In this document: positions 15,005 through 35,799 of the stretch, piece by piece
Position numbering within the stretch: the first letter of the stretch is position 1
Layout of the letters: every line of letters starts with the position of its first letter
Source of the DNA: Muribaculaceae bacterium
Lineage (GTDB): Bacteria; Bacteroidota; Bacteroidia; Bacteroidales; Muribaculaceae
Reading direction: 5' to 3'
Length of the DNA stretch: 64,000 bases
NCBI GenBank assembly: GCA_022509045.1
Contig: JAFLTZ010000001.1
Location: 1 to 64,000 of the forward strand
Notes under the pieces: generated by a model
Database searches by the model: none
Told to the model about the DNA's origin: nothing
The model's input: the letters and a program-made list of their open reading frames with translations, nothing else
Program-made: the position numbers and the translations under genes

Positions 15005-16090
15005 ATGAACAATCGTAGAAATTTCCTTAAAAACCTTGCGCTTGCCGGTGCCGGTGCAGTTGCTGCCCCAGCCATTGCCGGTTGCAACAATAAGGCAACT
15101 GCAGAATCTGCCGCTTATGTTGGCGATAACAATCTTCTAATTAAAAACGAAGGACTCAAAATCACCGGAACATTCCTTGATGAAATCTCCCACGATATTC
15201 CACACCAAAACTGGGGTGAAGCTGAATGGGATAAAGATTTCCAACATATGAAGAATATCGGCATTGACACCGTAATCATGATTCGCTCAGGATATCGCAA
15301 ACAAATTACATATCCAAGTGAATACCTGATTGGCAAGGGGTGCTATAAGCCGAGCAAAGACCTCCTTGATATGTATCTTCGCCTCGCTGACAAATATGGC
15401 ATGAAGTTTTATTTCGGACTTTATGATTCCGGCAAATATTGGGACACAGGAGACATGACGTGGGAAGTTGAACATAATAAATATGTTATTGACGAAGTTT
15501 GGAAAAATTACGGCGAGAAATATCCTAATGCCTTTGGCGGTTGGTATATAAGCGGTGAAATCAGTCGTGCCACTAAGGGCGCTATCGATGCTTTCCACGC
15601 TATGGGTAAACAATGTAAAGACGTGAGTGGCGGACTTCCGACATTCATATCACCATGGATTGATGGGAAAAAAGCCGTGGCTGCTGCATCGGGCAATCTT
15701 TCAAAAGCAGAAGGTGTATCGGTTGAACAACATGAAAAAGAATGGAACGAAATATTCGATGGTATCCACGATGTGGTTGATGCGTGTGCCTTCCAAGATG
15801 GACACATTGATTACGATGAATTAGATGCGTTCTTCACAGTAAACAAAAAAATGGCAGACCGCTATGGCATGAAATGTTGGACCAACGCAGAATCTTTCGA
15901 CCGCGATATGCCTATTAAGTTCTTCCCCATCAAATTTGATAAACTTCGTTTGAAACTCGAAGCTGCTAAACGCGCAGGCTATGATAAAGCTATTACATTT
16001 GAATTTAGCCATTTCATGAGCCCACAATCGGCATATTTACAGGCCGGACATCTGTATGATCGCTATAAAGATTATTTTGAAATCGGCTAA
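15005..16090 (+). CDS. DUF4434 family lipoprotein, predicted Tat-exported (first copy)
   Basis: A 361-residue protein predicted to be a TIM-barrel enzyme related to glycoside hydrolases, acting on a sugar ligand outside the cytoplasm. The N-terminus NNRRNFLKNLALAGAG fits a twin-arginine signal and is followed by a lipobox IAGC (Cys26). The mature part has GTFLDEISHDIPHQNWG, GGWYISGEIS, whose glutamate sits where clan GH-A enzymes place the acid/base, and AFQDGHI. The family has no firmly known activity that I can name. It heads the glycan locus, 37 bases before the sugar porter, and has a close paralogue at 18858-19949. Confidence 0.8.
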   Translation: MNNRRNFLKNLALAGAGAVAAPAIAGCNNKATAESAAYVGDNNLLIKNEGLKITGTFLDEISHDIPHQNWGEAEWDKDFQHMKNIGIDTVIMIRSGYRKQITYPSEYLIGKGCYKPSKDLLDMYLRLADKYGMKFYFGLYDSGKYWDTGDMTWEVEHNKYVIDEVWKNYGEKYPNAFGGWYISGEISRATKGAIDAFHAMGKQCKDVSGGLPTFISPWIDGKKAVAAASGNLSKAEGVSVEQHEKEWNEIFDGIHDVVDACAFQDGHIDYDELDAFFTVNKKMADRYGMKCWTNAESFDRDMPIKFFPIKFDKLRLKLEAAKRAGYDKAITFEFSHFMSPQSAYLQAGHLYDRYKDYFEIG

Positions 16091-16127
16091 TTATCAATAA
16101 TACTTTCAAATCTAAATCTTTGTAACA

Positions 16128-17540
16128 ATGAAAAAAGATATTAATCTTGGATACATAGTATTTCTTTCAATAGCTGCAGCTATTGGAGGGTTCTTATTTG
16201 GTTATGATACAGCCGTAGTATCCGGCACCAACGAAGCCGTATGGCAACAATTTAACATTGGCGACGGTTCTTTCTTTAGAGGCTTTTATGTATCGGCGGC
16301 TATATTAGGTTCAATACTCGGAGCTCTCTGTGGTGGTACTGTATCCGAACGCATCGGACGTAAATTTTCAATGATGCTCGCTGCGTTTCTTTTCCTCATA
16401 TCATCTTTATGGTGCGCTGTATGTTCTAATTTCCATGAACTGATTGTTGCTCGCGTAATCGGTGGTTTCGGTATAGGGTTGGCATCGGTTGTTTGTCCTT
16501 GCTACATATCTGAATTAGCTGTTGCCAAATATCGTGGTACTTTAGTGGCTCTCTATCAATTTGCCATTACATTCGGTATTCTTATTGCTTATGGCGTAAA
16601 CTATTTGCTCGATTTACATGCCAACACAGCCATTGAGTCACCGGACCTTTGGAATTTGATAATGAATACGGAAGTATGGCGAGGGATGCTTGGAATGTGC
16701 GCTGTGCCGGCTTTGGTTTTCATTATTATTCTTTTCATTGTACCGGAATCTCCGCGTTGGCTTGTCGTTCGAGGCGACCGCTATACTGCTGAAAAAATCC
16801 TCATGAACATATATCACTCAAAGGATGCTGTGCTCAATGAAATCAAATCCATTACAGGAGAAAAGTTTGACTCCGGATTCGGAGCAACCGATTACATCAA
16901 AAGACACCGCCGGATGATATATGCTATACTCATAGGTGTTGCAATTGCCATTTTAGGTCAATTCATGGGTGTAAATGCCGTAATATATTATGGACCTACT
17001 ATTTTCAAAGAAGTAGGGCTTGAAGACCCTCTTCTTGGTCAAGTATGGATAGGTGTTGTAAACTGTGCCACAACTATTATCGCTATATTTTTCATTGACA
17101 AAGTCGGGCGTAAAGGATTGGTGTATTTTGGGGTTTCCGGTATGATTCTATTTTTAGTTCTTGCCGCCGGATTCCTTCATTTCCAGGAAGAAATGCAACT
17201 TGATAGTGTACTCATGATTGTATTTCTCGGCGCTTATATGTTCTGCCAAGCAATTTCAATCTCAGCTATCATTTTCGTAATTCTTTCGGAAATGTATCCT
17301 ACAAAAATACGCGGTTTGGCAATGTCAATCGCTTCAATGTCGCTTTGGGTTGCAAACTGGCTCGTATCTCAGATATTCCCGAACTTGCTTGATGCATTAA
17401 CACTGAAAGGTACATTTATTCTATTTGCAGCATGCTGCATACCTTACATGTTGATAATGTGGAAACTTGTACCAGAGACCACAGGCAAAACACTCGAAGA
17501 AATTGAACAATATTGGATAAAAGAAAAGAAATCTAAATAA
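16128..17540 (+). CDS. Sugar porter of the major facilitator superfamily
   Basis: A 470-residue inner-membrane proton-coupled sugar importer with about 12 helices. Sugar-porter signatures are visible: FLFGYDTAVVSG near the first helix, ERIGRK between helices 2 and 3, PESPRWL before the central loop, KVGRKG, and PETTGKTLEEIE at the C-terminus. It resembles XylE/galactose-proton symporters. Placed between the first DUF4434 gene and the epimerase, it probably brings the released mono- or disaccharide into the cytoplasm. The substrate is not readable from sequence. Confidence 0.92.
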   Translation: MKKDINLGYIVFLSIAAAIGGFLFGYDTAVVSGTNEAVWQQFNIGDGSFFRGFYVSAAILGSILGALCGGTVSERIGRKFSMMLAAFLFLISSLWCAVCSNFHELIVARVIGGFGIGLASVVCPCYISELAVAKYRGTLVALYQFAITFGILIAYGVNYLLDLHANTAIESPDLWNLIMNTEVWRGMLGMCAVPALVFIIILFIVPESPRWLVVRGDRYTAEKILMNIYHSKDAVLNEIKSITGEKFDSGFGATDYIKRHRRMIYAILIGVAIAILGQFMGVNAVIYYGPTIFKEVGLEDPLLGQVWIGVVNCATTIIAIFFIDKVGRKGLVYFGVSGMILFLVLAAGFLHFQEEMQLDSVLMIVFLGAYMFCQAISISAIIFVILSEMYPTKIRGLAMSIASMSLWVANWLVSQIFPNLLDALTLKGTFILFAACCIPYMLIMWKLVPETTGKTLEEIEQYWIKEKKSK

Positions 17541-17583: not shown

Positions 17584-18771
17584 ATGACTGAAAATCAGAG
17601 AAATGAATTTAAAAAACTTGCCGATCTGTATCGTAGCGAGTTGCTTGACAACGTAATGCCTTTTTGGATGAAACATTCTATCGATACAGAATGTGGTGGT
17701 TATTTTTCTTGCCTAAATCGTGATGGTGCTGTATATGATACCGACAAATTTATTTGGTTGCAAGGACGTGAGGTGTGGATGCTTTCCACACTTTATAACA
17801 AGGTTGAAAAGCGTCAGGATTGGCTTGACGCTGCTATTCAGGGAGGTGAATTCCTAAAGAAATATGGTCACGATGGTAACTACAATTGGTATTTCTCCCT
17901 CACTCGTGAAGGTAAGCCAATTGTTGACCCTTATAACATCTTCAGCTACACATTTGCGGTAATGGCTTTCGGACAGTTGTTCCTTGCCACAGGCAATAAG
18001 GAATATGCTGAAATTGCAAAAACCACATTTGACATAGTTCTAAGCAAAGCAGATAATACCAAAGGCAAATGGAATAAACTGCATCCCGGGACCCGTCCAC
18101 TCAAGAACTTTGCTCTGCCAATGATTCTTTGCAACCTTGCTCTCGAAATAGAAGAACTCCTCGAACCGGAATTCCTTCAGAAAACTATCGACACATGCAT
18201 TAGCGAAGTCGAACAGTTCGTTCGTCCGGAACTTGACGGACTGGTTGTAGAAAACATAGGCGTTGACGGTTCATTGGTTGATTGCTACGAAGGACGTCAC
18301 ATGAATCCGGGACACTCTATAGAAGCTATGTGGTTTATGATGGACCTCGGTCGTCGTTTGAATCGTCCGGAACTCATTGAACGAGCTAAAAACACTGCCA
18401 TTCGCATGGTTGAATATGGTTGGGATAAAGAATTCGGCGGAATCTTCTACTTTATGGATCTTAAAGGATATCCACCACAAGAACTTGAATGGGACCAAAA
18501 ACTCTGGTGGGTACATATCGAAACTCTCATCTGTATGCTTAAGGGCTATAACCTCACCGGTGATGAACACTGCTGGGAATGGTTTAAGAAAGTACACGAT
18601 TATGCGTGGACACATTTTGCCGACAAAGAACACCCCGAATGGTTTGGTTATCTCAACCGACGTGGCGAAGTACTTCTCCCATTGAAGGGAGGCAAATGGA
18701 AAGGCTGTTTCCACGTTCCAAGAGGTATGTTCCAATGTTGGAAAGTTCTCGAAGAACTTGCTTCAAAATAA
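17584..18771 (+). CDS. AGE-family epimerase (N-acylglucosamine 2-epimerase type)
   Basis: A 395-residue cytosolic (alpha/alpha)6-barrel epimerase that interconverts C2 epimers, such as GlcNAc and ManNAc or glucose and mannose units. The catalytic histidine regions are visible as RHMNPGHSIEAMWF and KLWWVHIETL. WLQGREVWML lies near the N-terminus, and EHPEWFGYLNRRGEV near the C-terminus. The NPGHxIEA form looks more like the AGE/renin-binding group than cellobiose 2-epimerases, though I would not exclude the latter. Its place next to a sugar importer suggests it reshapes the imported sugar. No kinase or lyase gene accompanies it, so the downstream route is unknown. Confidence 0.87.
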   Translation: MTENQRNEFKKLADLYRSELLDNVMPFWMKHSIDTECGGYFSCLNRDGAVYDTDKFIWLQGREVWMLSTLYNKVEKRQDWLDAAIQGGEFLKKYGHDGNYNWYFSLTREGKPIVDPYNIFSYTFAVMAFGQLFLATGNKEYAEIAKTTFDIVLSKADNTKGKWNKLHPGTRPLKNFALPMILCNLALEIEELLEPEFLQKTIDTCISEVEQFVRPELDGLVVENIGVDGSLVDCYEGRHMNPGHSIEAMWFMMDLGRRLNRPELIERAKNTAIRMVEYGWDKEFGGIFYFMDLKGYPPQELEWDQKLWWVHIETLICMLKGYNLTGDEHCWEWFKKVHDYAWTHFADKEHPEWFGYLNRRGEVLLPLKGGKWKGCFHVPRGMFQCWKVLEELASK

Positions 18772-18857: not shown

Positions 18858-19949
18858 ATGAGCAACAATCGCAGAAATTTCATCAAAAACATGGCTGTAG
18901 CAGCCGGAGTAGCAGCCGGAGCCAAATACCTCACATCATGCAACACTTCTGCACCAACATCATCACTTCATTTTGAAGGAGACCCATCACTTGCCGGTAA
19001 ATTTATCACTCCTGAGTGCAAGCAAGGGATGCCTATTCACGCCACATTCCTCGACGAGGTAAGCTGGGATATTCCTCACCAAAATTGGGGTCCTGTAGAA
19101 TGGGATAAAGATTTTGCCAGCATGAAGCGCATGGGGATTAACACTGTGGTTTTAATCCGCGCCGGATTAGGAAGTTGGATTGCATCACCTTTCAAATCAG
19201 TTATTTCTATGCGAGAGGATGTAATGTATCCACCTCTTGATCTCACTGAAATGTTCCTTACACTCGCCGACAAGCATGGTCTTAATTTCTATTTCGGTCT
19301 ATACGATTCAGGCTACTATTGGCACATTGGCGAATATCAGAAAGAAATAGATATCAATCTGGCTCTCATTGACGAGGTTTGGGAAAAATATGGTCATCAT
19401 AAATCATTTGCCGGATGGTATCTTTCTCAGGAAGTAAGCCGTAGAACTCGCAATATTGCCAAGATTTTTGCGGATATGGGTAAATACGCAAAAAATATCT
19501 CCGGTGGATTGCCTACTATGATTTCACCTTATATACACGGAGTCAAGACAGACCAGGTAATGGCAGGCGACAAGGCTACCACCGTGGAGGAACACGAAAG
19601 AGAATGGAACGAAATACTTGGAAATATACAAGGAGCCGTAGATATCCTCGCATTCCAGGACGGACAAGTTAATTACGGAGAACTATATGATTACCTCACA
19701 GTAAATAAGGCTCTTGCAGATAAATATGGTATGCGCTGTTGGTCGAACGTAGAATCTTTCGACCGCGATATGCCAATCAGATTCCTCCCCATCAAATGGG
19801 AAAAACTTTTACTTAAACTCGACATTGCGCGCAAAGCAGGAATGGAGGATATCATCACATTCGAGTACTCTCATTTCATGAGCCCGAATTCGGCATATTC
19901 TCAAGCAGGACATCTATACAATAGGTATCTTGAACATTTTAAGTTATAA
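18858..19949 (+). CDS. DUF4434 family lipoprotein, predicted Tat-exported (second copy)
   Basis: A 363-residue paralogue of the protein at 15005. It again has a twin-arginine-like start (NNRRNFIKNMAVAAG) followed by a lipobox LTSC (Cys28). The core motifs are conserved: ATFLDEVSWDIPHQNWG, AGWYLSQEVSRR with the candidate acid/base glutamate, and AFQDGQVNYGEL. The closing segment EYSHFMSPNSAYSQAGHLY is nearly the same as in the first copy. Differences cluster in the loop after residue 90 and around the active-site face, which may mean the two copies handle different linkages. The susC gene follows after 37 bases. Confidence 0.8.
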   Translation: MSNNRRNFIKNMAVAAGVAAGAKYLTSCNTSAPTSSLHFEGDPSLAGKFITPECKQGMPIHATFLDEVSWDIPHQNWGPVEWDKDFASMKRMGINTVVLIRAGLGSWIASPFKSVISMREDVMYPPLDLTEMFLTLADKHGLNFYFGLYDSGYYWHIGEYQKEIDINLALIDEVWEKYGHHKSFAGWYLSQEVSRRTRNIAKIFADMGKYAKNISGGLPTMISPYIHGVKTDQVMAGDKATTVEEHEREWNEILGNIQGAVDILAFQDGQVNYGELYDYLTVNKALADKYGMRCWSNVESFDRDMPIRFLPIKWEKLLLKLDIARKAGMEDIITFEYSHFMSPNSAYSQAGHLYNRYLEHFKL

Positions 19950-19986: not shown

Positions 19987-22900
19987 ATGAAATTGAATTT
20001 TAAAATTCAACTGCGAAACCTATTCACCTTCATTATTTTTTTGTGCATCAGTTCTTTAACATTTGCACAAACTCAGATGGTGACAGGTTCCGTTGTTGAC
20101 CCGGAGAACGAGCCACTTCCCGGTGCAACCGTTATGGTAAAAGGCTCCACTCGCGGAGTTGCCACCGATTTGGAAGGTAACTATTCAATTGCCGCTAAAA
20201 AAGGGGAAGTGCTTGTGTTCAGCTATGTGGGTATGAGAACTCACGAAGTAAAAATCAGCCACACAACCATCAATGTCCAACTTATTGAAGATATCGGCAA
20301 TCTTGATGAATTAGTTGTAGTAGGTTATGGCGTACAAAAGAGAGGCAATATTACCGGAGCCATCTCTACAGTCAATGACAAAGAACTTCTTAAATCACCA
20401 ACAATGTCATTGTCAAACGTTATAGGTGGTCGTGTTTCAGGTGTCGCAACAGTTCAACAAACCGGTCAACCGGGCTATGACAATGCTTCAATTACAGTGC
20501 GTGGACAAAGTAACATCGTGTATGTGATTGACGGTGTGCGTCGCACTTCTTCCGATTTCAATGGTATTGATCCCAACGAAATTGAATCTATTTCGGTTTT
20601 GAAAGATGCATCAGCTGTTGCTGTATATGGATTGGATGCCAACGCAGCTTTCATTATAACCACAAAAAAAGGTCGTTCGGACAAAACTCAAATATCGTAC
20701 TCCGGTTCTGTTGGTTTCACCCAAAATGCACTTCAACAAGAGTGGCTCACCGGTCCTGAATTTGCGAAATGGTATAATAAAGCTCTTTCACTCACCGAAA
20801 CGTCTGATAAAAATGCAGGAACATACAATCCTGAGGATGGTTTATATTATTTCAATCCAAAATTTTCTGATGATCAGGTACAAATGATGATTAACGGTAC
20901 TAACGGTTGGGGAAACACCGATTGGTATAACGAAATGTATGGCAACGGGTTCCGTACACATCATAATATTTCTGCCACAGGAGGAAACGACAGGGTTCAT
21001 TTTTTTGCATCTGTAGGTTATCTCAAAGAAGACGGAAACCTTGATGGATACGGATATAACCGTTACAATTTGCGCGGAAATATTGATGCCAAAATCACAA
21101 ACAATCTTACATTTGACCTCGGTATTTCCGGTCGTATCGAAGACCGCGACGCTACAGCGTTTGGCACAGGAAAGGATGATTTCCTCAATGTGCCTCAACA
21201 AATTGTGAGTATGTATCCGTTCTTGCCTAAAACTGCAGTATGGTCAGATGGGAAAGAATATACTACAGGTGCACAAGGATGGACTCCCGATAATAACGCA
21301 TGGGGAGCTACACACGACACAGGTTACAGCAAGAGCAGACTTTCATACATATCTGCAAATATGTCGCTGAAATATGATGCTCCTTTTTTAAAGGGGCTAT
21401 CAGCTAAATTTCTTGCTTCATACGACTTGTATTATTCATTTTCGAAAACTTTACACTATCCGCTAAAGCACTTGCTTGCCGATATAAACAAAATAGATAT
21501 CAACACAGTGGATATGCCATATAACTTGGTTTGGGCATATCAAGGTTACAACAACACTCAGCTCAATGAAGCTGCCAACACAAGTTCTACTCTTTCTACT
21601 CAAACATCAATAAATTACGACAATACTTTTGGGAAGCATACCATCAATGCACTTGCTTTGTTGGAAACTCGCCAGCTCAAATCTAATGGATTAGGTGCAG
21701 GTGGTATGGGTCTCGATTTCCTCTCTCTTGATGAACTTGGCAAACTCACCTTTGTCAATGGAAATGGAGAAATAAAGCAACCCACAATATCCGGGTCAAG
21801 CTCAGAATCTCGCGTTGCCGGATTTGTAGGTCGTGTAAATTACAACTACGATGATAAGTATTTCGTAGAAGGTACAATTCGATACGATGGTAGCTATTTA
21901 TTCGGTGGTATGAATAAGCGTTGGGTTGCACTTCCCGGTGCATCTTTAGGTTGGCGTATCAGCAAAGAAGAATTCTTTAATGTTGATTGGATTAACGACT
22001 TTAAGTTGCGTGTGGCAGTCGGTGAAACTGGAATAAGCGGAATAAGTCCGTTCCAATGGCTCACAACAATGGTGCTTAACAAGAACGCCGTGATTATAGG
22101 AGGAACTCCTTCTACGTTTATATCTGCGGGAGGACTCGGCAATCCTTATTTACAGTGGGCTAAGTGTTTGAATTATAATGCCGGTTTCAACATTCTTACA
22201 TTCCAAGGACGTTTGGGTCTGGAATTCGACGTATTCTACAAACACGAATATGACCTCCTCACCACAGCAACCGGTGCATATCCGCCGTCAATGGGTGGTT
22301 ATTACTTTAGCACTGCCAATGGTAATGAAAAAGATTATCGAGGCGTTGATATAACACTTACGCACAACAATTCTGTTGGTGATTTCAACTATGGAGTGAA
22401 AGTCGTTTATTCTTATGCTTACGGACGATGGCTGAAATACATGGCTGATTCTGAAAATGCACCATCTTACGACCGCGTAACCGGGACTCAAATAGGTGCT
22501 CGCCGCGGACTTATTGCATTGGGTTTATTCCAATCACAGGAAGAAATAGACAATTCAATTCTTGTAGATGGATACCCGGTAAAAGTAGGTTATCTTAAAT
22601 ATCTCGACCGTAATGGCGATGGTAAGATTGTTCGTAATGGAGAAAATAGCGATGTGGGCATCATCGCAAAGAGTGCAATACCGACATCAACAGGTGCTAT
22701 CGACCTATTCGGCTCATGGAAAGGTATTGACATTGATATGTTGTGGGGATGGGGGCTTGGTCATGATGTAGCCATGACAGGTCAATATCAAGGAGCTGAC
22801 AATTCGGGCACAATGGACCACACCATGTACACTAAACCATTTTATCAAGGCGGTAATGCTCCGAGATATCTTGTGGAAAACAGCTGGACTCCTGAAAACC

Positions 22901-23205
22901 GGACAGCATATTTCCCACGTTTGGAAACAACACCTTATTCTCAAAATAACGCTATTTCAAGTAGTTATTGGTATAAGAAAGGTGATTATATTCGCTTGAA
23001 GACAGCTCAAATAGGATATACGTTCCCACAGAAACTTATCGGGCGTTCAGGTATCACTCGACTCAGAGTATATGCTGAGGGATACAACCTACTAACTTTC
23101 AGTGGTCTTAACAAGTTTAATATCGACCCTGAGTCACCAGCTGTAAATAACGGATACTATCCACAACAGCGTTCTTATTCTTTCGGTATTAACATTTCAT
23201 TCTAA
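19987..23205 (+). CDS. susC: SusC-family TonB-dependent outer-membrane transporter
   Basis: A 1072-residue outer-membrane importer that takes up oligosaccharides with TonB energy. It has a signal peptide (ending SSLTFAQ), then a carboxypeptidase-D-regulatory-like domain (about residues 32-108, with GATVMVKGST and GVATDLEGNYS). A TonB-box-like segment LDELVVVGYG follows, then the plug domain (to about 230) and a 22-strand barrel to the C-terminal FGINISF. Length and order are typical of SusC. susD follows 17 bases later, and together they form the lidded importer. Symbol given by family; the true glycan is unknown. Confidence 0.95.
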   Translation: MKLNFKIQLRNLFTFIIFLCISSLTFAQTQMVTGSVVDPENEPLPGATVMVKGSTRGVATDLEGNYSIAAKKGEVLVFSYVGMRTHEVKISHTTINVQLIEDIGNLDELVVVGYGVQKRGNITGAISTVNDKELLKSPTMSLSNVIGGRVSGVATVQQTGQPGYDNASITVRGQSNIVYVIDGVRRTSSDFNGIDPNEIESISVLKDASAVAVYGLDANAAFIITTKKGRSDKTQISYSGSVGFTQNALQQEWLTGPEFAKWYNKALSLTETSDKNAGTYNPEDGLYYFNPKFSDDQVQMMINGTNGWGNTDWYNEMYGNGFRTHHNISATGGNDRVHFFASVGYLKEDGNLDGYGYNRYNLRGNIDAKITNNLTFDLGISGRIEDRDATAFGTGKDDFLNVPQQIVSMYPFLPKTAVWSDGKEYTTGAQGWTPDNNAWGATHDTGYSKSRLSYISANMSLKYDAPFLKGLSAKFLASYDLYYSFSKTLHYPLKHLLADINKIDINTVDMPYNLVWAYQGYNNTQLNEAANTSSTLSTQTSINYDNTFGKHTINALALLETRQLKSNGLGAGGMGLDFLSLDELGKLTFVNGNGEIKQPTISGSSSESRVAGFVGRVNYNYDDKYFVEGTIRYDGSYLFGGMNKRWVALPGASLGWRISKEEFFNVDWINDFKLRVAVGETGISGISPFQWLTTMVLNKNAVIIGGTPSTFISAGGLGNPYLQWAKCLNYNAGFNILTFQGRLGLEFDVFYKHEYDLLTTATGAYPPSMGGYYFSTANGNEKDYRGVDITLTHNNSVGDFNYGVKVVYSYAYGRWLKYMADSENAPSYDRVTGTQIGARRGLIALGLFQSQEEIDNSILVDGYPVKVGYLKYLDRNGDGKIVRNGENSDVGIIAKSAIPTSTGAIDLFGSWKGIDIDMLWGWGLGHDVAMTGQYQGADNSGTMDHTMYTKPFYQGGNAPRYLVENSWTPENRTAYFPRLETTPYSQNNAISSSYWYKKGDYIRLKTAQIGYTFPQKLIGRSGITRLRVYAEGYNLLTFSGLNKFNIDPESPAVNNGYYPQQRSYSFGINISF

Positions 23206-26677: not shown

Positions 26678-26708
26678 GATTGGCACAACTTTAAAAAAAT
26701 GGCTATCA

Positions 26709-26740
26709 GGCGCTGCCGATTTTCTCGGCAGCACCTTTTT
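26709..26740 (+). terminator. Rho-independent terminator after the SusCD block
   Basis: A GC-rich stem (8 perfect pairs 712-719 with 725-732 of the 26.7 kb block, extended by GG/CC past one mismatch) with a 5-base loop and a TTTTT run. It splits the locus into a susCD part and a downstream enzyme part, and argues against a start codon at 26699 for the next gene. Confidence 0.85.
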
Positions 26741-26770
26741 ATCCCTATAAAGCATCTTGTAAAATGCTCT

Positions 26771-28162
26771 ATGATAATGAAACTATTAAAATCATTTCTA
26801 TTTTCATATATCACACTGATATCAATTACATTAACCGGATGTGGCGATGATAAAAATGACATCCCGTACCTCGGCACAAATCCTCCTAAAAAAGAAGAAC
26901 CGACCGATACTGTTGCAAAGCCCAGATATATATGGGTCGATGCTGCAGCTAACTTTATTGATTTCGCTAATAGTAAAGAGAATATCAAACGAGATTTAAC
27001 TCTCGCAAAAGATGCCGGTTTCACGGATATCGTTGTGGATGTGCGCCCCATATCGGGTGACGTCTTGTTCAAAACAGATATTGAAAAACAAGTGGAATAT
27101 TTGTACGCCTGGATTTCAAAGGATGGTGGAGGCAGTGTGTATTCTCGTGTTTATAGAACTGCCACTTGGGATTATCTGCAAGCATTTATAGATGCAGGTA
27201 AAGAGCTCGGATTAAAAATCCATGCCGGATTTAACACCTTCTCAGGTGGATATAATGGTTCCGGACTACTTTATCGCGACAAAGAAAAAGCTGAAACTTG
27301 GGCATCTACTTTAAATACCGCCTCAGGGTTTGTGAACATTATGGATATCCCAGGAGAAACTACAAAGTTTTTTAATCCAAGTCACCCTGATGTTCAGAAT
27401 TACTTATGCTGCTTACTTGCCGACTTAGCAAAGTATGATATCGATGGAATAGTTCTCGATCGTGGACGATATTTAAACATTTGCTCTGATTTCTCGGAGA
27501 TTTCACGCCAACAATTTATATCATTTTTAGGAATGAATTGCAATTGGCCCGATGATGTATTGCCATTCGGAAGCACATCATATCCCACACCTACCCCAAA
27601 ATATCTACCTCGTTGGTTTGAATATCGAGCTAAAGTGATTTACGAATTTATGAACAACGCTCGCAATGCCGTAAAATCGGTAAATAGTTCTGTTAAATTT
27701 GGTGTATATGTTGGAGCATGGTATAGTTCCTATTTCGATGTTGGTGTAAATTGGGCGGGAAAGAATTACAATTCTGCTATAGATTATACATGGGCATCTC
27801 CGGGATATAACAATTGGGGGTATGCCGGATTAATGGACCAGATGTTGCTTGGAGCCTATGCGAATCCTAATAGCGTGTATGGCACTATAGAATGGACTAT
27901 TCAAGGCTTTTGCGCGCTCGGAAAGAAAAGAACTGCCAATGAATGTCCCCTCGTAGTTGGTGGACCCGATGTTGGCAACTGGTCGGTTGGTGGAATTACC
28001 GAAACTCAAGAACTTGATGCAGTGAAAAATTCCGTTGACGCTGCTATAAACGCCTGCGACGGATATTTTTTGTTCGATATGGTCCACCTGAAAATGAATC
28101 CCAAAAAATGGGACTACGTTAAACAAGGAATTGATGATTATCTCAAAACAGTAAACAATTAA
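26771..28162 (+). CDS. GHL10/YngK-like lipoprotein (alpha-amylase-like barrel), first copy
   Basis: A 463-residue lipoprotein (lipobox LTGC, Cys21) with a TIM-barrel of the DUF187/GHL10 type, a hypothetical glycosidase family. Key features are YIWVDAAANFIDF at the first strand, FTDIVVDVRP, GLKIHAGFNTFSGGYNG, and DGIVLDRGRY, whose aspartate is the candidate catalytic residue. The start at 26771 (or 26777) was chosen because an upstream in-frame ATG at 26699 lies before the terminator and would add a non-signal N-terminus. The phosphoesterase gene follows 4 bases later. Activity is not established for this family, to my knowledge. Confidence 0.78.
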   Translation: MIMKLLKSFLFSYITLISITLTGCGDDKNDIPYLGTNPPKKEEPTDTVAKPRYIWVDAAANFIDFANSKENIKRDLTLAKDAGFTDIVVDVRPISGDVLFKTDIEKQVEYLYAWISKDGGGSVYSRVYRTATWDYLQAFIDAGKELGLKIHAGFNTFSGGYNGSGLLYRDKEKAETWASTLNTASGFVNIMDIPGETTKFFNPSHPDVQNYLCCLLADLAKYDIDGIVLDRGRYLNICSDFSEISRQQFISFLGMNCNWPDDVLPFGSTSYPTPTPKYLPRWFEYRAKVIYEFMNNARNAVKSVNSSVKFGVYVGAWYSSYFDVGVNWAGKNYNSAIDYTWASPGYNNWGYAGLMDQMLLGAYANPNSVYGTIEWTIQGFCALGKKRTANECPLVVGGPDVGNWSVGGITETQELDAVKNSVDAAINACDGYFLFDMVHLKMNPKKWDYVKQGIDDYLKTVNN

Positions 28163-28166: not shown

Positions 28167-29636
28167 ATGAAATTTACAATACATCGTTTGTTCATTGCTG
28201 TCGCAATAATTTTAACTGCACAACAAACCTTCGGTGCCGATTTTTGCCCGCGTGTTATAAATGGGAAAATAGTATGTGGGAAAAAAGCTATCTCTGGTGT
28301 ACCTGTAACCGACGGCTACAATTTTGCTCTAACAGATAAAGACGGATGCTATGAACTTCCAATAAACAGCTCAGCATCATATGTTTATATAACTACTCCG
28401 GCGGGGTATTTGCCGGAACATAACAATTTTCATCCACAATTCTATAAATCATTATCACAAGAATGCGACCGCTATGATTTTAATTTGATTAAAAACCCAA
28501 AAGATGACAGCCGTCATGTGGTGTATGTACAAACAGATGTACAAGTTATTGAAGAGCGCGAACTTGATTTGTACGATTTACAGGTAGATGATGTTTTAAA
28601 AGAGTTGAAACAATACGAAAAAAAATACGATATTTTTGGCATAGATTGCGGTGATATCGTTGGTGATCACCCAGAATTATATCAATCATCTTTAAAACAT
28701 TATTCCCGTCTTGGATTCCCACTATATTGTGCAATGGGTAACCATGATATGATCTATGACGGACGCACACATGAAACATCATACACACGTTTTGAGAGTA
28801 TATGGGGCCCATCTCGCTACTCATTTAATCGTGGCAATGTACACTACATCGTAATTGATGACATATTCTATATCGGTCGCGATTATTTCTACATGGGATA
28901 TATTGATGAAGCTACATTTTCATGGCTTGAAAAAGACCTGGCAAACGTTCCTGAAAACTCCACTGTGATCATAAGTATGCATATTCCGTCACACTTAAAG
29001 AATCCTGCCCCTGCATTTGCATACAATGGCTCCGAGGTGGGAGAACAATTAGTAAATTTCCGAGGTTTACATAAATTACTACAGCCCTATAATGCACATA
29101 TTTTCAGCGGACACACACATTGTAACCTCACACTGCAATTTGCTCCAAATCTAATAGAGCACAATCATGCATCGGCATGTGGCACATGGTGGGATTTGCC
29201 GGTATGTCAAGATGGAACCCCTCAAGGATATGCTGTGTATGTAGTGGATGGCAACGATATTAAGTGGTATTACAAAGGCGCGTCAACAAATCGCAATCAT
29301 CAATTCCGCGCTTATCCTATGGGATATGATAAAAAGAATCCTGATAAAATAGTGGCTAATGTATGGAATTACGACTCTGAATGGACTGTAGAGTGGCTTG
29401 AAGATGGCGTTATAAAAGGTAACATGACCAAATTCTCCGGACAAGACCCCTATGTAATCGATTTAATCGGTGACCGCAAACATTTGCGTTTTTCTTGGAT
29501 TTCGGCAGAAGTAAACGACCACATGTTTTCATGTGTGCCGGAAAACCCGAATGCTGCAATCACGATTCGTGTAACCGACCGTTTCGGGAACGTGTATGAA
29601 GATGTACCATCTGCCCCGATAAATCCATTTAAATAA
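28167..29636 (+). CDS. Exported calcineurin-like metallophosphoesterase
   Basis: A 489-residue exported phosphoesterase. A signal peptide (ending QQTFGA) precedes a small N-terminal beta domain (about 25-105, carboxypeptidase-regulatory-like, with ISGVPVTDG). The metal-binding catalytic domain follows: TDVQ (first metal ligand region), DCGDIVGD, MGNHDMIY, SMHIPSH and SGHTHCN. From about 375 there is a C-terminal beta domain. This N-catalytic-C order is common in Bacteroidota phosphoesterases, often in glycan loci, where the natural substrate is unknown. It overlaps no gene, but it is tightly packed between the two GHL10-like genes, so it is probably part of the same transcript. Confidence 0.85.
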   Translation: MKFTIHRLFIAVAIILTAQQTFGADFCPRVINGKIVCGKKAISGVPVTDGYNFALTDKDGCYELPINSSASYVYITTPAGYLPEHNNFHPQFYKSLSQECDRYDFNLIKNPKDDSRHVVYVQTDVQVIEERELDLYDLQVDDVLKELKQYEKKYDIFGIDCGDIVGDHPELYQSSLKHYSRLGFPLYCAMGNHDMIYDGRTHETSYTRFESIWGPSRYSFNRGNVHYIVIDDIFYIGRDYFYMGYIDEATFSWLEKDLANVPENSTVIISMHIPSHLKNPAPAFAYNGSEVGEQLVNFRGLHKLLQPYNAHIFSGHTHCNLTLQFAPNLIEHNHASACGTWWDLPVCQDGTPQGYAVYVVDGNDIKWYYKGASTNRNHQFRAYPMGYDKKNPDKIVANVWNYDSEWTVEWLEDGVIKGNMTKFSGQDPYVIDLIGDRKHLRFSWISAEVNDHMFSCVPENPNAAITIRVTDRFGNVYEDVPSAPINPFK

Positions 29637-29659: not shown

Positions 29660-31021
29660 ATGAAAAAATCTGCTTTTATCATTTCAAGCGCATTATTAGT
29701 GCTTTCTACATTATTTTCTTGCAAAAAAGCCACTAACGCTGAATCTATAAGAATTGAGGACCGCCCAAAAATTATGTGGGTAGATTTCGATGCCAATTGG
29801 ACAAGGTTTTCCAATCCAGATACAGCTCGCTACTACATCAAAAAGGTAGCCGATTGTGGTTTTAATCATCTTGTAATTGACGTTAAAGCCACAAAGAGTG
29901 CAGTAGCATTCAATAGTTCTGTTGCTCCAAAAATTAAGACTCTGAGAGGTGTGGATATGCCGGACAATTTCAATTATCTTGACACTATGATTACCATCGG
30001 TAGAGAAAATGGCATGAAAGTATTTGCATCGCTCAACGTATTTTGTGAAGGGACAAATCCCGAAAAACAGGGCATCCTGTATGGTGATAAAAAGGCATGG
30101 GAAACGGAATACTACTTTGCCGATGGTATTATAAGTAAAGCTGATGATATGGAAGGTCCAGGTACTGCTTTTATGAATCCGGCTATTCCTGAAGTACAGA
30201 ATTATGCTCGCTCCGTAGTTCTTGATTTGATAAGCAATTATGACCTTGACGGAGTGATGCTCGACCGAGGTCGTTATGAAGGTATCGGCTCTGATTTTTC
30301 ACAATTCTCCAAAAATAAATTTGAAGAATATATTGGAGAGAAAGTAGAAACTTTCCCACAAGACATCTACGAATGGGTAAAAGACGATAAAGGTCAGATT
30401 ACCCGTAAACCGGGAAAGTGGTATCAGAAGTGGATTGAATGGCGTGCCTCCGTCATATATAATTTTTTCAAAACCACACGTGATTCTATAAAAGCTGTAA
30501 AACCTAACATTATGTTCGGCAACTACACCGGAGCATGGTATCCATCTTATTTTGAAGTAGGAGTAAACTGGGCAAGCAAAGAATATGACCCATCAAAAGA
30601 TTTTGATTGGGCTACTCCTGAATATAAAAACTATGCACTCAACGAACTTTTCGATCTCTATACCAATGGTAATTACTATGTTGATGTGACTCTTGATGAA
30701 TTACGTGAACATGGACTCAGAATTAAAAATGAAACTGATAGCGAATATTCTATTGGTGAACATTTGTGTGTAGAAGGAGCCTGTGACTATTCTCGCAAAC
30801 TTCTATGTGGACGCCCATTTTATGGTGGTATGTATGTAGAACAATATTACGATAGCACCGACCGCTTCCAACGAGCCGTAAAAATGAATCTCAAGAAAAG
30901 TGATGGTTTTATGTTGTTTGACATTTGCCACATTATCCGGCAAAATTGGTTCGACTTGCTGAAACAAGCAATTGATGAAGCAGAACAGGAATTGCGCGAA
31001 ACTCAAAACGAAACCAAATAA
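29660..31021 (+). CDS. GHL10/YngK-like lipoprotein, second copy
   Basis: A 453-residue paralogue of the 26771 gene, again a lipoprotein (lipobox LFSC, Cys21). It shares IMWVDFDANWTRF, FNHLVIDVKATKSAVAF, MKVFASLNVFCEG and DGVMLDRGRYEG, with the conserved LDRGRY acid, plus GNYTGAWYPSYFEVGVNWA late in the barrel, which matches VGAWYSSYFDVGVNWA of the first copy. Both probably hydrolyse or bind sugar polymers in the periplasm or at the cell surface. The loops differ enough to suggest different substrates. It is followed after 12 bases by the DUF5009 gene. Confidence 0.77.
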   Translation: MKKSAFIISSALLVLSTLFSCKKATNAESIRIEDRPKIMWVDFDANWTRFSNPDTARYYIKKVADCGFNHLVIDVKATKSAVAFNSSVAPKIKTLRGVDMPDNFNYLDTMITIGRENGMKVFASLNVFCEGTNPEKQGILYGDKKAWETEYYFADGIISKADDMEGPGTAFMNPAIPEVQNYARSVVLDLISNYDLDGVMLDRGRYEGIGSDFSQFSKNKFEEYIGEKVETFPQDIYEWVKDDKGQITRKPGKWYQKWIEWRASVIYNFFKTTRDSIKAVKPNIMFGNYTGAWYPSYFEVGVNWASKEYDPSKDFDWATPEYKNYALNELFDLYTNGNYYVDVTLDELREHGLRIKNETDSEYSIGEHLCVEGACDYSRKLLCGRPFYGGMYVEQYYDSTDRFQRAVKMNLKKSDGFMLFDICHIIRQNWFDLLKQAIDEAEQELRETQNETK

Positions 31022-31033: not shown

Positions 31034-32446
31034 ATGCGTGCTCAATCATTAGATGCCCTTCGCGGCTTTGCAATAATTATGATGGTGCTTAGTGGCACTA
31101 TTGCAGCAGGCGTGCTCCCTAATTGGATGTCACACTGTCAAGTACCTCCTGCAACCGGATTCGACCCCTCAATATATGGTATCACATGGGTGGACTTGGT
31201 ATTCCCCTTTTTCCTATTCGCAATGGGCGCTGCTTTCCCTTTTTCAATCGGCAGTAAACTTGAAAGAGGCGAAAGTAAACTCAAACTTTCTCTCTCCGCA
31301 TTAGGGCGTTGCTTCCGATTGGTATATTTTGCGGTCTTTATAGCTCATGTATATCCTTGGAACATGTTTGGCGGATTGCAAAATCCTCTTGTGTGGTGTC
31401 TTTGTATCTTTTCGTTTATTCTCATGTTCGGCATGTATCTTCGTTTTCCATGGAATATAAAGCCTTGGTTACGCTTTGCCATAGAATTCGGCAGTTATGC
31501 TATAGGTCTGATTATGATGATTTGGATAGATACTCGTAAGGCAGGGACACTTTCTCTTAACTTATACGATAATAATATCATTATCCTTTTACTCGGCATA
31601 ATGGCATTTTTTGCCACAGTGATATACATATTCACCCGTTGTAGTGTACTCGCCCGATTGGGAGTGCTTCCATTTATAATGGCTATACTTCTAAGCAAAG
31701 ATTGCGCTGACAGTTGGCAACAATGGTTATTTTACTATACACCTGCCAGATGGTTATTTCAATTTCATTTTCTGAAATATTTATTTATAGTATTACCCGG
31801 TACTGTCGCCGGTCAATTCATAAAAGATTGGATAACAGAAAAAAATTCTATTAATGCATTATCCTCGGCAAACGATTCGAAAATAATGAAGCTGCTTATA
31901 CCAATCAATGTACTTCTTCTGCTACTTTCAAATCTATGGGGGTTATATACGCGCGAACTTGTAGCCAATTTTGTTATCAGCATAGCACTTGTGGCATCAC
32001 TCTTCTATTGTGCCAATGTATGTGGGAGTAATCGCAAATTATTCCTCAATCTCGCTCGTTGGGGTGCATATTTTCTCATTCTTGGCCTTTTCTTCGAAGC
32101 ATACGAAGGTGGAATCCGCAAAGATGACTCCACATATAGCTATTATTTCGTTACGTCCGGATTAGCATTCTATTGCCTTATTGGATTTGTGATGCTTTGC
32201 GATGTCCTCAAATACGATAAAATCATGTCACCTCTCACAATGGCTGGAAAGAATCCTATGATTGCCTATGTGGGGACATCAATATTTATAATGCCGGTGC
32301 TTCAACTATTACACATCCTGCCTTGGATGCTCGAAAATATGACGACACGTGCAATTCCGGGATTTTTATACGGTGTAATACTCACATCGCTTGATGTGCT
32401 TATCGCAATGTATTTTACCAAGATAAAATGGTTCTGGCGTACTTGA
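31034..32446 (+). CDS. DUF5009/HGSNAT-like multi-pass membrane protein, putative acyltransferase
   Basis: A 470-residue inner-membrane protein with about 10-12 hydrophobic segments. The N-terminus RAQSLDALRGFAIIMMVLSG is the signature of the heparan-alpha-glucosaminide N-acetyltransferase / YeiB / DUF5009 group, which move acetyl groups across membranes onto sugars. GITWVDLVFPFFLFAMG is also typical. In this locus it lies just before three SGNH esterases, so acetylation state of the glycan may be adjusted on both sides. It has no signal peptide beyond the first helix. Function as an acetyltransferase is inferred from family. Confidence 0.75.
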   Translation: MRAQSLDALRGFAIIMMVLSGTIAAGVLPNWMSHCQVPPATGFDPSIYGITWVDLVFPFFLFAMGAAFPFSIGSKLERGESKLKLSLSALGRCFRLVYFAVFIAHVYPWNMFGGLQNPLVWCLCIFSFILMFGMYLRFPWNIKPWLRFAIEFGSYAIGLIMMIWIDTRKAGTLSLNLYDNNIIILLLGIMAFFATVIYIFTRCSVLARLGVLPFIMAILLSKDCADSWQQWLFYYTPARWLFQFHFLKYLFIVLPGTVAGQFIKDWITEKNSINALSSANDSKIMKLLIPINVLLLLLSNLWGLYTRELVANFVISIALVASLFYCANVCGSNRKLFLNLARWGAYFLILGLFFEAYEGGIRKDDSTYSYYFVTSGLAFYCLIGFVMLCDVLKYDKIMSPLTMAGKNPMIAYVGTSIFIMPVLQLLHILPWMLENMTTRAIPGFLYGVILTSLDVLIAMYFTKIKWFWRT

Positions 32447-32464
32447 TAATAATAGCAGTATATA

Positions 32465-33568
32465 ATGAGAAAAAATATTGTAACTATAATCCTTGCTTGT
32501 GTAAATCTATTCAACTTTGCACAAGCAAGTGATATAAAATATGTAGATGCCTCCTCTTTACCTCTATTGGGGAAGGCAATTGACGACACAGCCAGTAAAT
32601 GTCGCTATTCACGGTTGCCTGATTCATTATCAACTCAGGTTGAACGTTATCGCCTATACACTCTTGGCACCAACTCAACCGGCATGGCAATACGCTTTCG
32701 CTCTGCATCACCCAAGATTTGTGCAAAGTGGAACTCTCCATGGAAATTCATGCTTGAAATACAGTCGCCTGTCGGCACTCGCGGTCTTGACCTTTATGCT
32801 CTCAATGATGACGGGAAAACATGGCAATTTATTAATTCTGCGCAACCAAATGTATGGGAAAATAAAACAGAAACTACCATCATTGCCAATATGGAGCCAA
32901 AAATGCGTGAATATATTATGTATCTTTCTCTTTACGACACTGTAGATTCTCTTTATATTGGCGTAGAAGAAGGATATTCAGTAGAACCACCTGCTGTTGA
33001 TATACCATCTACAAAACGACCAATCATTGTATATGGTACAAGCATAGTTCAAGGACCTGGAGCATCAAAGCCTTCTATGAACTATACCAATATGCTAACA
33101 CGCAGACTGAATCGGGAAGTTATTAATCTGGGATTTGGGGGGCATGGACAACTTGATCTACCTGTAGCAAAAGTAATTGCTGCTAAAAAAGACCCGGGTA
33201 TGATAATCCTTGATTTTGTACCCAATTGTACACCAGAACGTATCGACACCATGATGATTCCATTTTTCGATATCATCAGGCAAGCTCATCCCGATGTGCC
33301 AGTATTGATTGTAGAAGCACCGCTACACACTCGCTATGTGTTTGACCGACAATTAGGGAGTGATTTCGATGCGAAAAATGAATGTTTGCGCAATAAATTT
33401 CTCGAACTCAAAAAACGAGGGGAAAAAAGCATCTATTTCCTTGAAGGCAAGAAGATTTTCACCCCTGATTCTGAATGTACAGTGGATGGCTTGCATTTCA
33501 CAGACGAAGCATATCGCGACTATTCAAATATCCTGTATCGGATAATTAAAAAATACGCTCTTAAATAA
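32465..33568 (+). CDS. SGNH/GDSL hydrolase with N-terminal GxDLY domain, copy 1 of 3
   Basis: A 367-residue exported esterase. A signal peptide (ending FAQAS) is followed by a beta-sandwich N-terminal domain carrying RGLDLY, the namesake of the GxDLY domain. The SGNH domain comes next, with its nucleophile serine in YGTSIVQG (near residue 193), the glycine of GFGGHGQLD in place of block II, and the catalytic Asp/His in DGLHFTDEAY. SGNH esterases of this type usually remove acetyl or other acyl groups from glycans. Copy 1 differs most from the other two (KFMLEIQSPVGT against LMNHQTPVG). Confidence 0.85.
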   Translation: MRKNIVTIILACVNLFNFAQASDIKYVDASSLPLLGKAIDDTASKCRYSRLPDSLSTQVERYRLYTLGTNSTGMAIRFRSASPKICAKWNSPWKFMLEIQSPVGTRGLDLYALNDDGKTWQFINSAQPNVWENKTETTIIANMEPKMREYIMYLSLYDTVDSLYIGVEEGYSVEPPAVDIPSTKRPIIVYGTSIVQGPGASKPSMNYTNMLTRRLNREVINLGFGGHGQLDLPVAKVIAAKKDPGMIILDFVPNCTPERIDTMMIPFFDIIRQAHPDVPVLIVEAPLHTRYVFDRQLGSDFDAKNECLRNKFLELKKRGEKSIYFLEGKKIFTPDSECTVDGLHFTDEAYRDYSNILYRIIKKYALK

Positions 33569-33582
33569 TTCATTCCTAAATT

Positions 33583-34686
33583 ATGCCAAAATCACTATTA
33601 ACGATATTAATTGTTTTCTGTACGCTACAATTCAGATTAACCGGACAGGAACTTAAATATTATGAAGCCACTCAATACCCTTTGCTCGGCAAGCCTATTG
33701 ATGATTCTGCCAGCGAACGTTACTATATGCGATTGCCAGATTCTATTCAAGGGAAAATTGAGCGTCCATACCTATATACGCTCGGAAGCAATACTGCAGG
33801 TATGGCTATACGATTTCGCACAGCTTCACCTATAATAGGAGCTAAATGGAAGTCTGTATATCAAACTCTTATGAATCATCAAACGCCGGTAGGCTCACGT
33901 GGTCTCGACCTATACACCCTTGAGGATGATAGCAAAACATGGACATTTGTCAATACAGCTCGTCCCAATCTATGGAATGCCGTCACAGAGACCGTGATTA
34001 TTAATAATATGGAACCGAAGATGCGTGAATATATGTTATATCTGCCGCTTTATGATGGCGTGGATAGTCTATATATCGGAATCAATTCAGAATATACAGT
34101 AGAACAACCGGCAATCGACCTCCCCAAACGCGAAAAACCTATAATTTTCTATGGCACCAGCATTTTACAAGGAGGTTGTGCAAACCGTCCTGGTATGGCA
34201 CATACAAATATACTTGAAAGATGGTTGAATCGCGAGACAATTAATCTTGGGTTCAGCGGAATGGGACAACTCGACTTGCCTGTTGCTCACGTAATTGCAA
34301 ACATTACTAATCCGGGGATGGTGGTTCTTGATATGGTTCCGAATGTTAGTGTAGCCCAGATGGATACGCTACTTGTAAGTTTCTATAATATAATCCGTAC
34401 AGCTCATCCCGATGTGCCGATGTTATTTATCGAAGACCCGGAATTTCCACACTGCCGATTCGATAAGGCAGCAAGAAATGATGTAGATACAAAAAATGCT
34501 TGTTTGAAGAAGCATTTTGAATATTTAAAGAAGAGTGGTGAAAAAAACATTTATTATCTTGACGGAAAAAATGTGATTGGTAATGATGCAGAAGCCACTG
34601 TTGACGGTCTCCATTTTACCGATTTAGGTTTTATGAGATTTTCCGAAATACTTTACCCAATAATAAACAAACATGCTTTAAAATAA
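33583..34686 (+). CDS. SGNH/GDSL hydrolase with N-terminal GxDLY domain, copy 2 of 3
   Basis: A 367-residue paralogue of the preceding gene, 14 bases downstream. The N-terminus MPKSLLTILIVFCTLQF is a weaker signal peptide. RGLDLYTLEDD marks the GxDLY domain, YGTSILQGG holds the nucleophile serine, GFSGMGQLDLPVA is block II, and DGLHFTDLGF gives the catalytic Asp and His. Long stretches are identical or nearly so in copy 3, notably LPKREKPIIFYGTS and NRPGMAHTNIL, showing recent duplication. Predicted to deacylate a glycan outside the cytoplasm. Confidence 0.85.
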   Translation: MPKSLLTILIVFCTLQFRLTGQELKYYEATQYPLLGKPIDDSASERYYMRLPDSIQGKIERPYLYTLGSNTAGMAIRFRTASPIIGAKWKSVYQTLMNHQTPVGSRGLDLYTLEDDSKTWTFVNTARPNLWNAVTETVIINNMEPKMREYMLYLPLYDGVDSLYIGINSEYTVEQPAIDLPKREKPIIFYGTSILQGGCANRPGMAHTNILERWLNRETINLGFSGMGQLDLPVAHVIANITNPGMVVLDMVPNVSVAQMDTLLVSFYNIIRTAHPDVPMLFIEDPEFPHCRFDKAARNDVDTKNACLKKHFEYLKKSGEKNIYYLDGKNVIGNDAEATVDGLHFTDLGFMRFSEILYPIINKHALK

Positions 34687-34701
34687 TAAATCACTACCTA
34701 T

Positions 34702-35799
34702 ATGAAACAATCTGTAATTTCCCTAATTTGTTTTATCTGTACATTTGTAGCAATCGCACAAGATGTAAAATATTATGATGCGCGTAACTATCCTTTATTT
34801 GGTAAAGGAATTGAAGATAGTGCAAGTAAATGGAACTATTCTCGTCTCCCGGATTCAATTGCCCCAATCCTTGAACGTCCTGCTCTGATGGAAATGGCAG
34901 AATGTTCTGCAGGTATGTTCATACGTTTTCGCTCCAATAGCCCTTTCATTAATGCAAAATGGAAATCCACTCATCAATGTCTTATGAACCACCAAACTCC
35001 GGTTGGTACACGTGGACTTGATTTATATACCCTTGAAGCTGATGGCAAAACATGGACTTTCATGAATGCAGCACGGCCCAATCCATGGAATGCTACAAGT
35101 GAAGCAAGAATAATCGGCAATATGGAGCCCGAGATGCGCGAATATATGCTCTATCTGTCGCTTTATGATGGAGTGGATAGTCTATATATTGGAATTGATC
35201 CAAAATATACGATTGAACAACCGGCAATTGATCTTCCAAAACGCGAAAAACCTATAATTTTCTACGGTACCAGCCTGCTCCAAGGCGGATGTGCAAACCG
35301 CCCCGGCATGGCACATACCAACATTCTTAGCCGCTGGCTAAATCGTGAAACCATTAACCTGGGATTTAGCGGACTCGGACAACTCGACTTGCCGGTAGCT
35401 AAAACTATTGCAGCCATACCTGACCCTGGAATGGTGGTACTCGAAATGGTACCCAATGTAAACGTAGAGCAAATGGACACATTGCTTGTACGTTTCTTTA
35501 ATATCATTCGTGATGCACACCCGAATGTACCGGTTCTGTTTGTAGAAGACCCTCAATTTCCACATATTCGTTTTGATAAAGCAATTGCACATGAGGTCGC
35601 ACGTAAAAATGAATGTATCAAAAAGCATTTTAACAATCTCAAAAAACAAGGTGTAAAAAACATCTATTACCTCAAAAACGACGACCTCTACGGTCACGAT
35701 CACGAGGCTACCGTAGATGCATTACACATGACAGATCTCGGATTTATGAGGATATCTAAAGTAATGTACCCTATTTTGAAAAAACGTGCTCTGAAATAA
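34702..35799 (+). CDS. SGNH/GDSL hydrolase with N-terminal GxDLY domain, copy 3 of 3
   Basis: A 365-residue paralogue, 15 bases after copy 2. The signal peptide ends near FVAIAQ. RGLDLYTLEAD, YGTSLLQGG with the nucleophile serine, GFSGLGQLDLPVA and DALHMTDLGF (catalytic Asp/His, with Gly-Leu replaced by Ala-Leu) show an intact active site. The GxDLY domain has MEMAECSAGMFIRFRS where copies 1 and 2 read TLGxNxxGMAIRFR, so ligand contacts may have shifted. It is the last gene of the locus; MscS follows after 48 bases, and I saw no terminator in that gap. Confidence 0.85.
   Translation: MKQSVISLICFICTFVAIAQDVKYYDARNYPLFGKGIEDSASKWNYSRLPDSIAPILERPALMEMAECSAGMFIRFRSNSPFINAKWKSTHQCLMNHQTPVGTRGLDLYTLEADGKTWTFMNAARPNPWNATSEARIIGNMEPEMREYMLYLSLYDGVDSLYIGIDPKYTIEQPAIDLPKREKPIIFYGTSLLQGGCANRPGMAHTNILSRWLNRETINLGFSGLGQLDLPVAKTIAAIPDPGMVVLEMVPNVNVEQMDTLLVRFFNIIRDAHPNVPVLFVEDPQFPHIRFDKAIAHEVARKNECIKKHFNNLKKQGVKNIYYLKNDDLYGHDHEATVDALHMTDLGFMRISKVMYPILKKRALK

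Follow-up and report, generated by a model that had tools for sequence, protein, structure and literature searches.

What does a glycan-uptake operon degrade, and with which enzymes, when it encodes no established glycoside hydrolase (GH) or polysaccharide lyase (PL)? We addressed this question for an operon at positions 15005-35799 of a 64,000-nucleotide stretch from a Muribaculaceae bacterium (the window, taken from the start of a 113-kb contig in a 1.94-Mb draft genome, 95.85% complete). The operon consists of 14 + strand genes with intergenic gaps of 4-86 bp, and comparison with Pfam and NCBIfam confirmed all 14 families named in a first-pass annotation made from the sequence alone. A Pfam scan of all 45 window open reading frames (ORFs) of at least 150 aa also bore out the view that the locus holds no recognized GH or PL; GHL10 and DUF4434 are the sole enzyme families of that kind there. 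Its status as a polysaccharide utilization locus (PUL) rests on SusC and SusD lying side by side among accessory genes of the same orientation, an arrangement kept in related loci, and not on a carbohydrate-active enzyme. We hold it about evenly balanced that the operon is a PUL for a glycan rich in N-acetylglucosamine (GlcNAc) that is O-acylated and partly de-N-acetylated, and for which a bacterial envelope polymer or exopolymer is a more likely source than the host. The genes are:

15005..16090, + strand: DUF4434 a, candidate retaining glycosidase (PF14488, 290.5 bits; E185/E296 pair)
16128..17540, + strand: sugar porter of the major facilitator superfamily (MFS), inner membrane (PF00083, 366.9 bits; TIGR00879 above cut-off)
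17584..18771, + strand: N-acylglucosamine 2-epimerase (AGE), no signal peptide seen (NCBIfam AcylGsamEpipAGE NF052547, 690.9 bits, above the equivalog cut-off of 600)
18858..19949, + strand: DUF4434 b, 51% identical to DUF4434 a (PF14488, 243.4 bits)
19987..23205, + strand: SusC-type TonB-dependent transporter (CarbopepD_reg_2, Plug)
23223..24860, + strand: SusD-like surface lipoprotein (PF07980, PF14322)
24881..26677, + strand: DUF5018 lipoprotein, likely a surface glycan-binding protein (PF16410, 249.8 bits)
26699..28162, + strand: GHL10 a with DUF4985, likely a surface enzyme (Pfam, model, fold search, lipobox)
28167..29636, + strand: calcineurin-like phosphoesterase with MetallophosN, Metallophos and MetallophosC (Pfam; GNHD and GHTH motifs)
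29660..31021, + strand: GHL10 b with DUF4985, likely a periplasmic lipoprotein (Pfam, lipobox)
31034..32446, + strand: DUF5009, HGSNAT-type transmembrane acyltransferase (PF16401, 221.5 bits; DxxR and FxxxxG motifs in the translation)
32465..33568, + strand: SGNH esterase 1, GxDLY and Lipase_GDSL_3 (PF14606, PF14607; GTS serine and D-x-x-H present)
33583..34686, + strand: SGNH esterase 2, GxDLY and Lipase_GDSL_3 (Pfam; GTS serine and D-x-x-H present)
34702..35799, + strand: SGNH esterase 3, GxDLY and Lipase_GDSL_3, 69% identical to SGNH esterase 2 (Pfam; GTS serine and D-x-x-H present)

Related loci and their partner genes

An alignment of GHL10 a run against genome contigs returned 147 relatives, from which the best 80 loci were retained. 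Bacteroides, Prevotella-type genera, Tannerella, Alistipes and Proteiniphilum are among the groups represented, and the locus also occurs in Maribellus, Sunxiuqinia, Labilibaculum and Anaerophaga, genera that live outside hosts. Among the 80 loci, which were picked via GHL10 a and in which any gene truncated at a contig edge or missed by a simple ORF caller was scored as absent, we counted GHL10 a in 74, DUF5018 in 69, SusD in 67, SusC in 64, GHL10 b in 54, the phosphoesterase in 47, AGE in 41, DUF4434 in 40, DUF5009 in 35, the sugar porter in 18 and the GxDLY esterases in 17. A tally that took in further loci gave slightly higher figures. The gene set is widespread in Bacteroidales, well conserved and already recorded, and thus not unique to this genome; the system is of an ordinary kind, and its value lies in the candidate enzymes that it offers.

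Partners beyond this set, named from one annotated representative per cluster, include a FAD oxidoreductase (33/80), a NAGPA phosphodiester glycosidase (29/80), a CE2 esterase (23/80), a GDSL esterase (19/80), an SSF symporter (10/80), a SASA esterase (9/80) and GH20 (6/80), and 73 further neighbors include NAGLU/GH89 (one member) and a GlcNAc de-N-acetylase (two members). Two genomes from the family to which the window belongs have a full-length GH20 inside the cluster (L123, L124), and a third (L128) has a BLAST match. We favor a GlcNAc-rich substrate because so many of these neighbors center on GlcNAc (NAGPA, CE2, GDSL, SASA, GH20, NAGLU/GH89, the de-N-acetylase and the ROK regulators described below); judged by family, the partner genes together suggest acylated GlcNAc material with phosphate links. 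The three SGNH esterases, all intact, the AGE epimerase and the DUF5009/HGSNAT-type protein agree with the earlier guess that the glycan carries acylated N-acetylhexosamine, and acylated GlcNAc polymers can now be proposed as the substrate class. The same survey does not support the claim, as worded, that degradation must sit in the DUF4434 and GHL10 proteins: GH20, GH89 and NAGPA are encoded within the cluster or next to it in relatives, and the genome studied here encodes GH89, GH97, GH20 (contigs C80 and C87) and NAGPA (C49) elsewhere.

Oxidoreductases of a GFO/IDH/MocA cluster occur in four loci (L045, L055, L067 and L079), and the L045 copy matches the model for the BT_2158 glycoside 3-dehydrogenase. 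With the FAD oxidoreductase, they may provide an oxidative deglycosylation step in some versions of the locus.

DUF4434 proteins are strong glycosidase candidates

The DUF4434 model (pLDDT, the predicted local distance difference test, 78.8) is a TIM barrel in which eight strands can be counted. Clan GH-A retaining glycosidases carry glutamates after strands 4 and 7. E185 and E296 sit at these two places, are invariant in 26/26 DUF4434 proteins from related loci and are kept in 3/3 distant paralogues; of 18 conserved residues checked, D64, E185, D265, N294 and E296 alone are identical in all three. Because the glutamate pair survives at this distance, the modeled DUF4434 is a strong candidate for a retaining, clan GH-A-like glycosidase. 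The closest structure to DUF4434 a is the Bacteroides thetaiotaomicron BT_0435 crystal 4h41 (83% identical, Z 44.6), followed by Cwp19 (Z 20.5), with GH164, GH5, GH42 and beta-amylase close behind or tied; as several folds are nearly tied at Z about 19-20, specificity cannot be read from the fold. We therefore did not adopt the alpha-L-fucosidase assignment under which 4h41 was deposited, as the title is a putative annotation and the fold search gave no clear winner. A literature search on DUF4434 found no paper.

GHL10 proteins share a fold with GlcNAc-polymer enzymes

Both GHL10 domains score above the PF02638 cut-off (49.3 and 79.0 bits against 27.9). GHL10 a was modeled at pLDDT 89.5, and its nearest fold is Cwp19 (Z 32.7, root-mean-square deviation 2.9, 323 aligned), which a profile match also links to GHL10 (E 5.8e-13); second is the PgaB C-terminal domain (Z 27.9). 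Membership of the fold is firm; the mechanism is not. DigH is another GHL10 protein, and the PgaB domain belongs to family GH153. According to the literature, Cwp19 of Clostridioides difficile is a peptidoglycan lytic transglycosylase (PMC6016235) with Asp196 and Arg132 as proposed active-site residues, PgaB has a strand-7 glutamate (both PMC5765458), and DigH is a denuded-glycan hydrolase (PMC12288456). That GHL10 a folds closest to Cwp19 and PgaB, both of which act on GlcNAc polymers, argues for such a polymer as substrate.

The residues, however, differ. Mapped via a profile alignment, the position of Cwp19 D196 is R255 in 48 of 49 GHL10 sequences and that of R132 is variable, and since neither residue is conserved, a Cwp19-type reaction is doubtful. 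The locus proteins also differ from Cwp19 in being lipoproteins with DUF4985, where Cwp19 has CWB2 repeats. The PgaB domain shares the TIM barrel, but at 15% identity its strand-7 glutamate has no GHL10 counterpart. Of the first-pass proposal that DUF4434 and GHL10 are enzymes, the DUF4434 part thus gains from its retaining TIM-barrel architecture, whereas the GHL10 part has to do without the catalytic residues proposed for Cwp19.

It could be, then, that GHL10 a and b are non-catalytic glycan binders and the DUF4434 pair the sole glycosidases of the locus, as the absent Cwp19 dyad and the lack of a glutamate pair after strands 4 and 7 would suggest. We judge this distinctly unlikely. D254, R257, D264 and D460 are invariant in 49/49 sequences, as a catalytic site would be, and three distant copies from the same genome (L022, counted among the 49 too, L023 and L024) keep D254 and R257, with tyrosine at position 255 and D, E and E, respectively, at 460. 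Candidate residues can be named for two enzyme sets, E185/E296 in DUF4434 and D254/D460 in GHL10. If activity were shown, DUF4434, DUF4985, DUF5018 and DUF5009 would gain a function together.

The PgaB likeness raises another possibility, a PUL for poly-N-acetylglucosamine (PNAG)-type or other GlcNAc exopolysaccharide in which GHL10 would be an endo-hydrolase of partly de-N-acetylated poly-GlcNAc. The second-best fold agrees with it, and DUF5009 would re-acetylate the glucosamine. It leaves NAGPA and the phosphoesterase unexplained, though, and the strand-4 acid discussed as functional in both PgaB and Cwp19 is an arginine in the locus GHL10 proteins, so we consider it improbable.

Bacterial or host glycan

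The nearest recorded system is in B. thetaiotaomicron. A published table lists BT0446-49 as DUF5009, GHL10, phosphoesterase and GHL10, BT0451-54 as SusD, TonB receptor and sugar porter, and BT0438 as an alpha-N-acetylglucosaminidase, a characterized GH89 (PMC10434189). From this table, BT0446-BT0454 matches the window in the series sugar porter, TonB receptor, SusD, GHL10, phosphoesterase, GHL10, DUF5009, and BT0435, the 83%-identical DUF4434 of PDB entry 4h41, lies nearby, as do BT0438-BT0443. The B. thetaiotaomicron region differs in having GH89 (BT0438) and DUF4855 nearby and two SusC/SusD sets, whereas the window adds AGE, both DUF4434 genes and three esterases in one run. A recorded locus with this gene series thus exists, but the literature gave no defined substrate for it, and the first-pass view of the locus stands in this respect; literature listings for NAGPA, for DUF2233 and for the use of peptidoglycan by Bacteroides showed nothing on this locus.

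This counterpart brings in the host. The locus might release and trim fragments of N-glycans, heparan-type chains or mucin O-glycans capped with alpha-GlcNAc; DUF5009 and GH89 would then play the parts that HGSNAT and NAGLU have in the lysosome. A host glycan is argued for by the GH89 neighbor and the reported induction of the B. thetaiotaomicron counterpart in vivo; BT_0439 has been linked to the degradation of host glycans, and a published paper places BT0451-BT0461 in an N-glycan PUL. Contig C35 of the genome studied here carries a GHL10-GH97-phosphoesterase-GH97-GH89 run (L024, 10726-19881), and a sialidase and a GH20-cluster gene adjoin the Bacteroides pyogenes locus. Conversely, a glycan found in hosts alone fits poorly with the occurrence in free-living genera, lineages not tied to animals; no sulfatase or uronyl lyase is among the 25 commonest families of the 73 extra neighbors, and the sialidase results below point the same way. 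We regard a host-glycan PUL as rather unlikely.

Also next to the B. pyogenes locus are an AGE of 37% identity, an MFS gene and a SASA/NANM protein, which would suit a sialic-acid-linked locus with AGE as NanE and the esterases as sialate O-acetylesterases. We sought the sialidase and NanA lyase of a Nan catabolic locus and found neither a BNR sialidase (PF13088) nor a PF00701 protein in the genome studied here, at its 95.85% completeness. Across 119 genomes the sialidase was unrelated to the locus (5/19 locus-bearing versus 26/100 other genomes, p 1.0). It is therefore unlikely that AGE acts on a sialic-acid route here, although the draft may have a gap, and sialic acid as the substrate is disfavored to the point of being highly improbable. 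The absence of PF00701 (DHDPS family) also means that DapA is missing besides NanA, although 14/14 control genomes have a member; the cause is either a draft gap or genuine loss of the pathway to diaminopimelate.

Elsewhere in the genome, on contig C116, MurQ is encoded with an MFS protein, NamZ, a FAD-linked oxidase, an HGSNAT-type protein, a BadF-type kinase and a GDSL esterase. This operon, too, combines an HGSNAT-type protein with a GDSL esterase, which speaks for a bacterial, GlcNAc-rich substrate; the peptidoglycan version of that reading is no more than suggestive. Besides the changed Cwp19 residues and the in vivo induction, GH89 and BT_0439 reports, further observations weigh against the bacterial reading. 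No amidase or peptidase family appears among the neighbor families listed for related loci, MurQ is only weakly and not significantly enriched with the locus in the 119-genome comparison (12/19 versus 43/100, one-sided p 0.086, relatedness ignored), and it was not found near the other loci searched (L109-L112 and L126 left out). MurQ adjacency, seen in genome G164 alone (L122, ~1.5 kb from a ROK gene), was set aside as a clue, one in more than 80 being about what we estimate for chance.

Localization and a proposed pathway

Acidic residues after the lipoprotein cysteine mark surface export. Under a simple lipobox rule, such a start occurs in related loci in 52/71 SusD, 55/71 DUF5018, 34/75 GHL10 a and 3/62 GHL10 b proteins, and in 0/32 and 1/13 DUF4434 proteins; in the window, CGDDKND follows the lipobox of GHL10 a. 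From this pattern we infer a surface location for GHL10 a and a periplasmic one for GHL10 b and DUF4434. GHL10 a follows DUF5018 in 56/74 loci. DUF4434 apparently lacks a signal peptide in some Rikenellaceae and in L084, for which start-codon errors are a possible cause.

DUF5009 is related to the HGSNAT and NagX transmembrane N-acetyltransferases at the clan level and shares their DxxR and FxxxxG motifs, whereas the window protein matches the NagX model weakly, below its equivalog cut-off (40.2 bits against 480). According to PMC12423673, DUF5009 intermixes with HGSNAT and no DUF5009 protein has been tested.

From the observed gene content, conservation, folds and residue patterns, we infer localization, reactions and substrate as follows. 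GHL10 a, DUF5018, SusD and SusC would bind, cut and import fragments at the outer surface. In the periplasm, the three SGNH esterases would strip acyl groups, the phosphoesterase would take off a substituent attached through phosphate, and glycosidic bonds would be cleaved by GHL10 b and the DUF4434 proteins. Glucosamine exposed there could be re-N-acetylated by DUF5009 with cytosolic acetyl-CoA, which would let the N-acetyl-dependent glycosidases encoded elsewhere in the genome (GH20, GH89) finish. The sugar porter would import the products, AGE would interconvert GlcNAc and N-acetylmannosamine, and regulation would probably fall to a NagC-like ROK protein whose gene lies 66 kb away.

A bolder version makes this a Bacteroidales-wide system for eating the cell-wall polymers of other bacteria. 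DUF4434 would be a new GH family, and the GHL10 of the locus would be a catalytic variant of a new type that does without the Cwp19 residues; the phosphoesterase and, in relatives, NAGPA would open GlcNAc-1-phosphate linkages such as teichoic acid-peptidoglycan joints, and DUF5009 would repair N-deacetylated glucosamine. As a whole we think this unlikely.

Regulation

Pfam gave no match to a hybrid two-component, SusR, sigma or anti-sigma protein among the scanned window ORFs, in agreement with the first-pass annotation, but a regulator of the ROK type is identifiable in relatives and in the genome studied here. A ROK/NagC-like gene accompanies 11/80 related loci. The genome's own ROK gene lies 66 kb from the locus at C1:81028-82236, adjoined divergently by a third DUF4434 gene (pair C1:81028-83469), and its product is 60% identical to the ROK near the B. 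pyogenes locus and 56% identical to the ROK heading the G164 locus. A more distant ROK (35-37% identical) stands directly before SusC in eight other loci (L027 and L089 being the same record). These gene positions and identities make a NagC-like ROK protein the putative regulator of the locus. Three features of the DNA bear on expression:

14856..14887, + strand: Bacteroidales-type promoter TTTG-N20-TAAATTTG, a perfect pattern match 117 bp before the first ATG
14905..14916, no strand assigned: perfect 12-bp palindrome ATTGGTACCAAT, an unproven operator lead, with one exact copy in the genome
18772..18857, + strand: strong RNA hairpin within the operon, in the gap between AGE and DUF4434 b (-20.9 kcal/mol, z -7.3)

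The promoter pattern, built on the Bacteroidales consensus, occurs 7 times in the window against 1.81 expected by shuffling. We rejected the idea that ATTGGTACCAAT is a conserved operator: allowing one mismatch gives 6 occurrences versus 7 for a control, and equivalent sites in relatives have no copy. No common operator was found around 14 ROK genes when their intergenic stretches were read by eye. The hairpin may set different expression of the two halves of the operon; it has no T run.

Neighboring genes

A plasmid search with the phosphoesterase gene gave no match. An alkaline phosphatase is encoded upstream of the locus on the opposite strand and an MscS channel downstream. Directly after the locus, on the minus strand, lies a GLUG-motif protein of 2070 aa (36849-43061). 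Further along the window, at 50601-55359, a beta-propeller-type protein is followed by an 859-aa protein with TPR and caspase (Peptidase_C14) domains.

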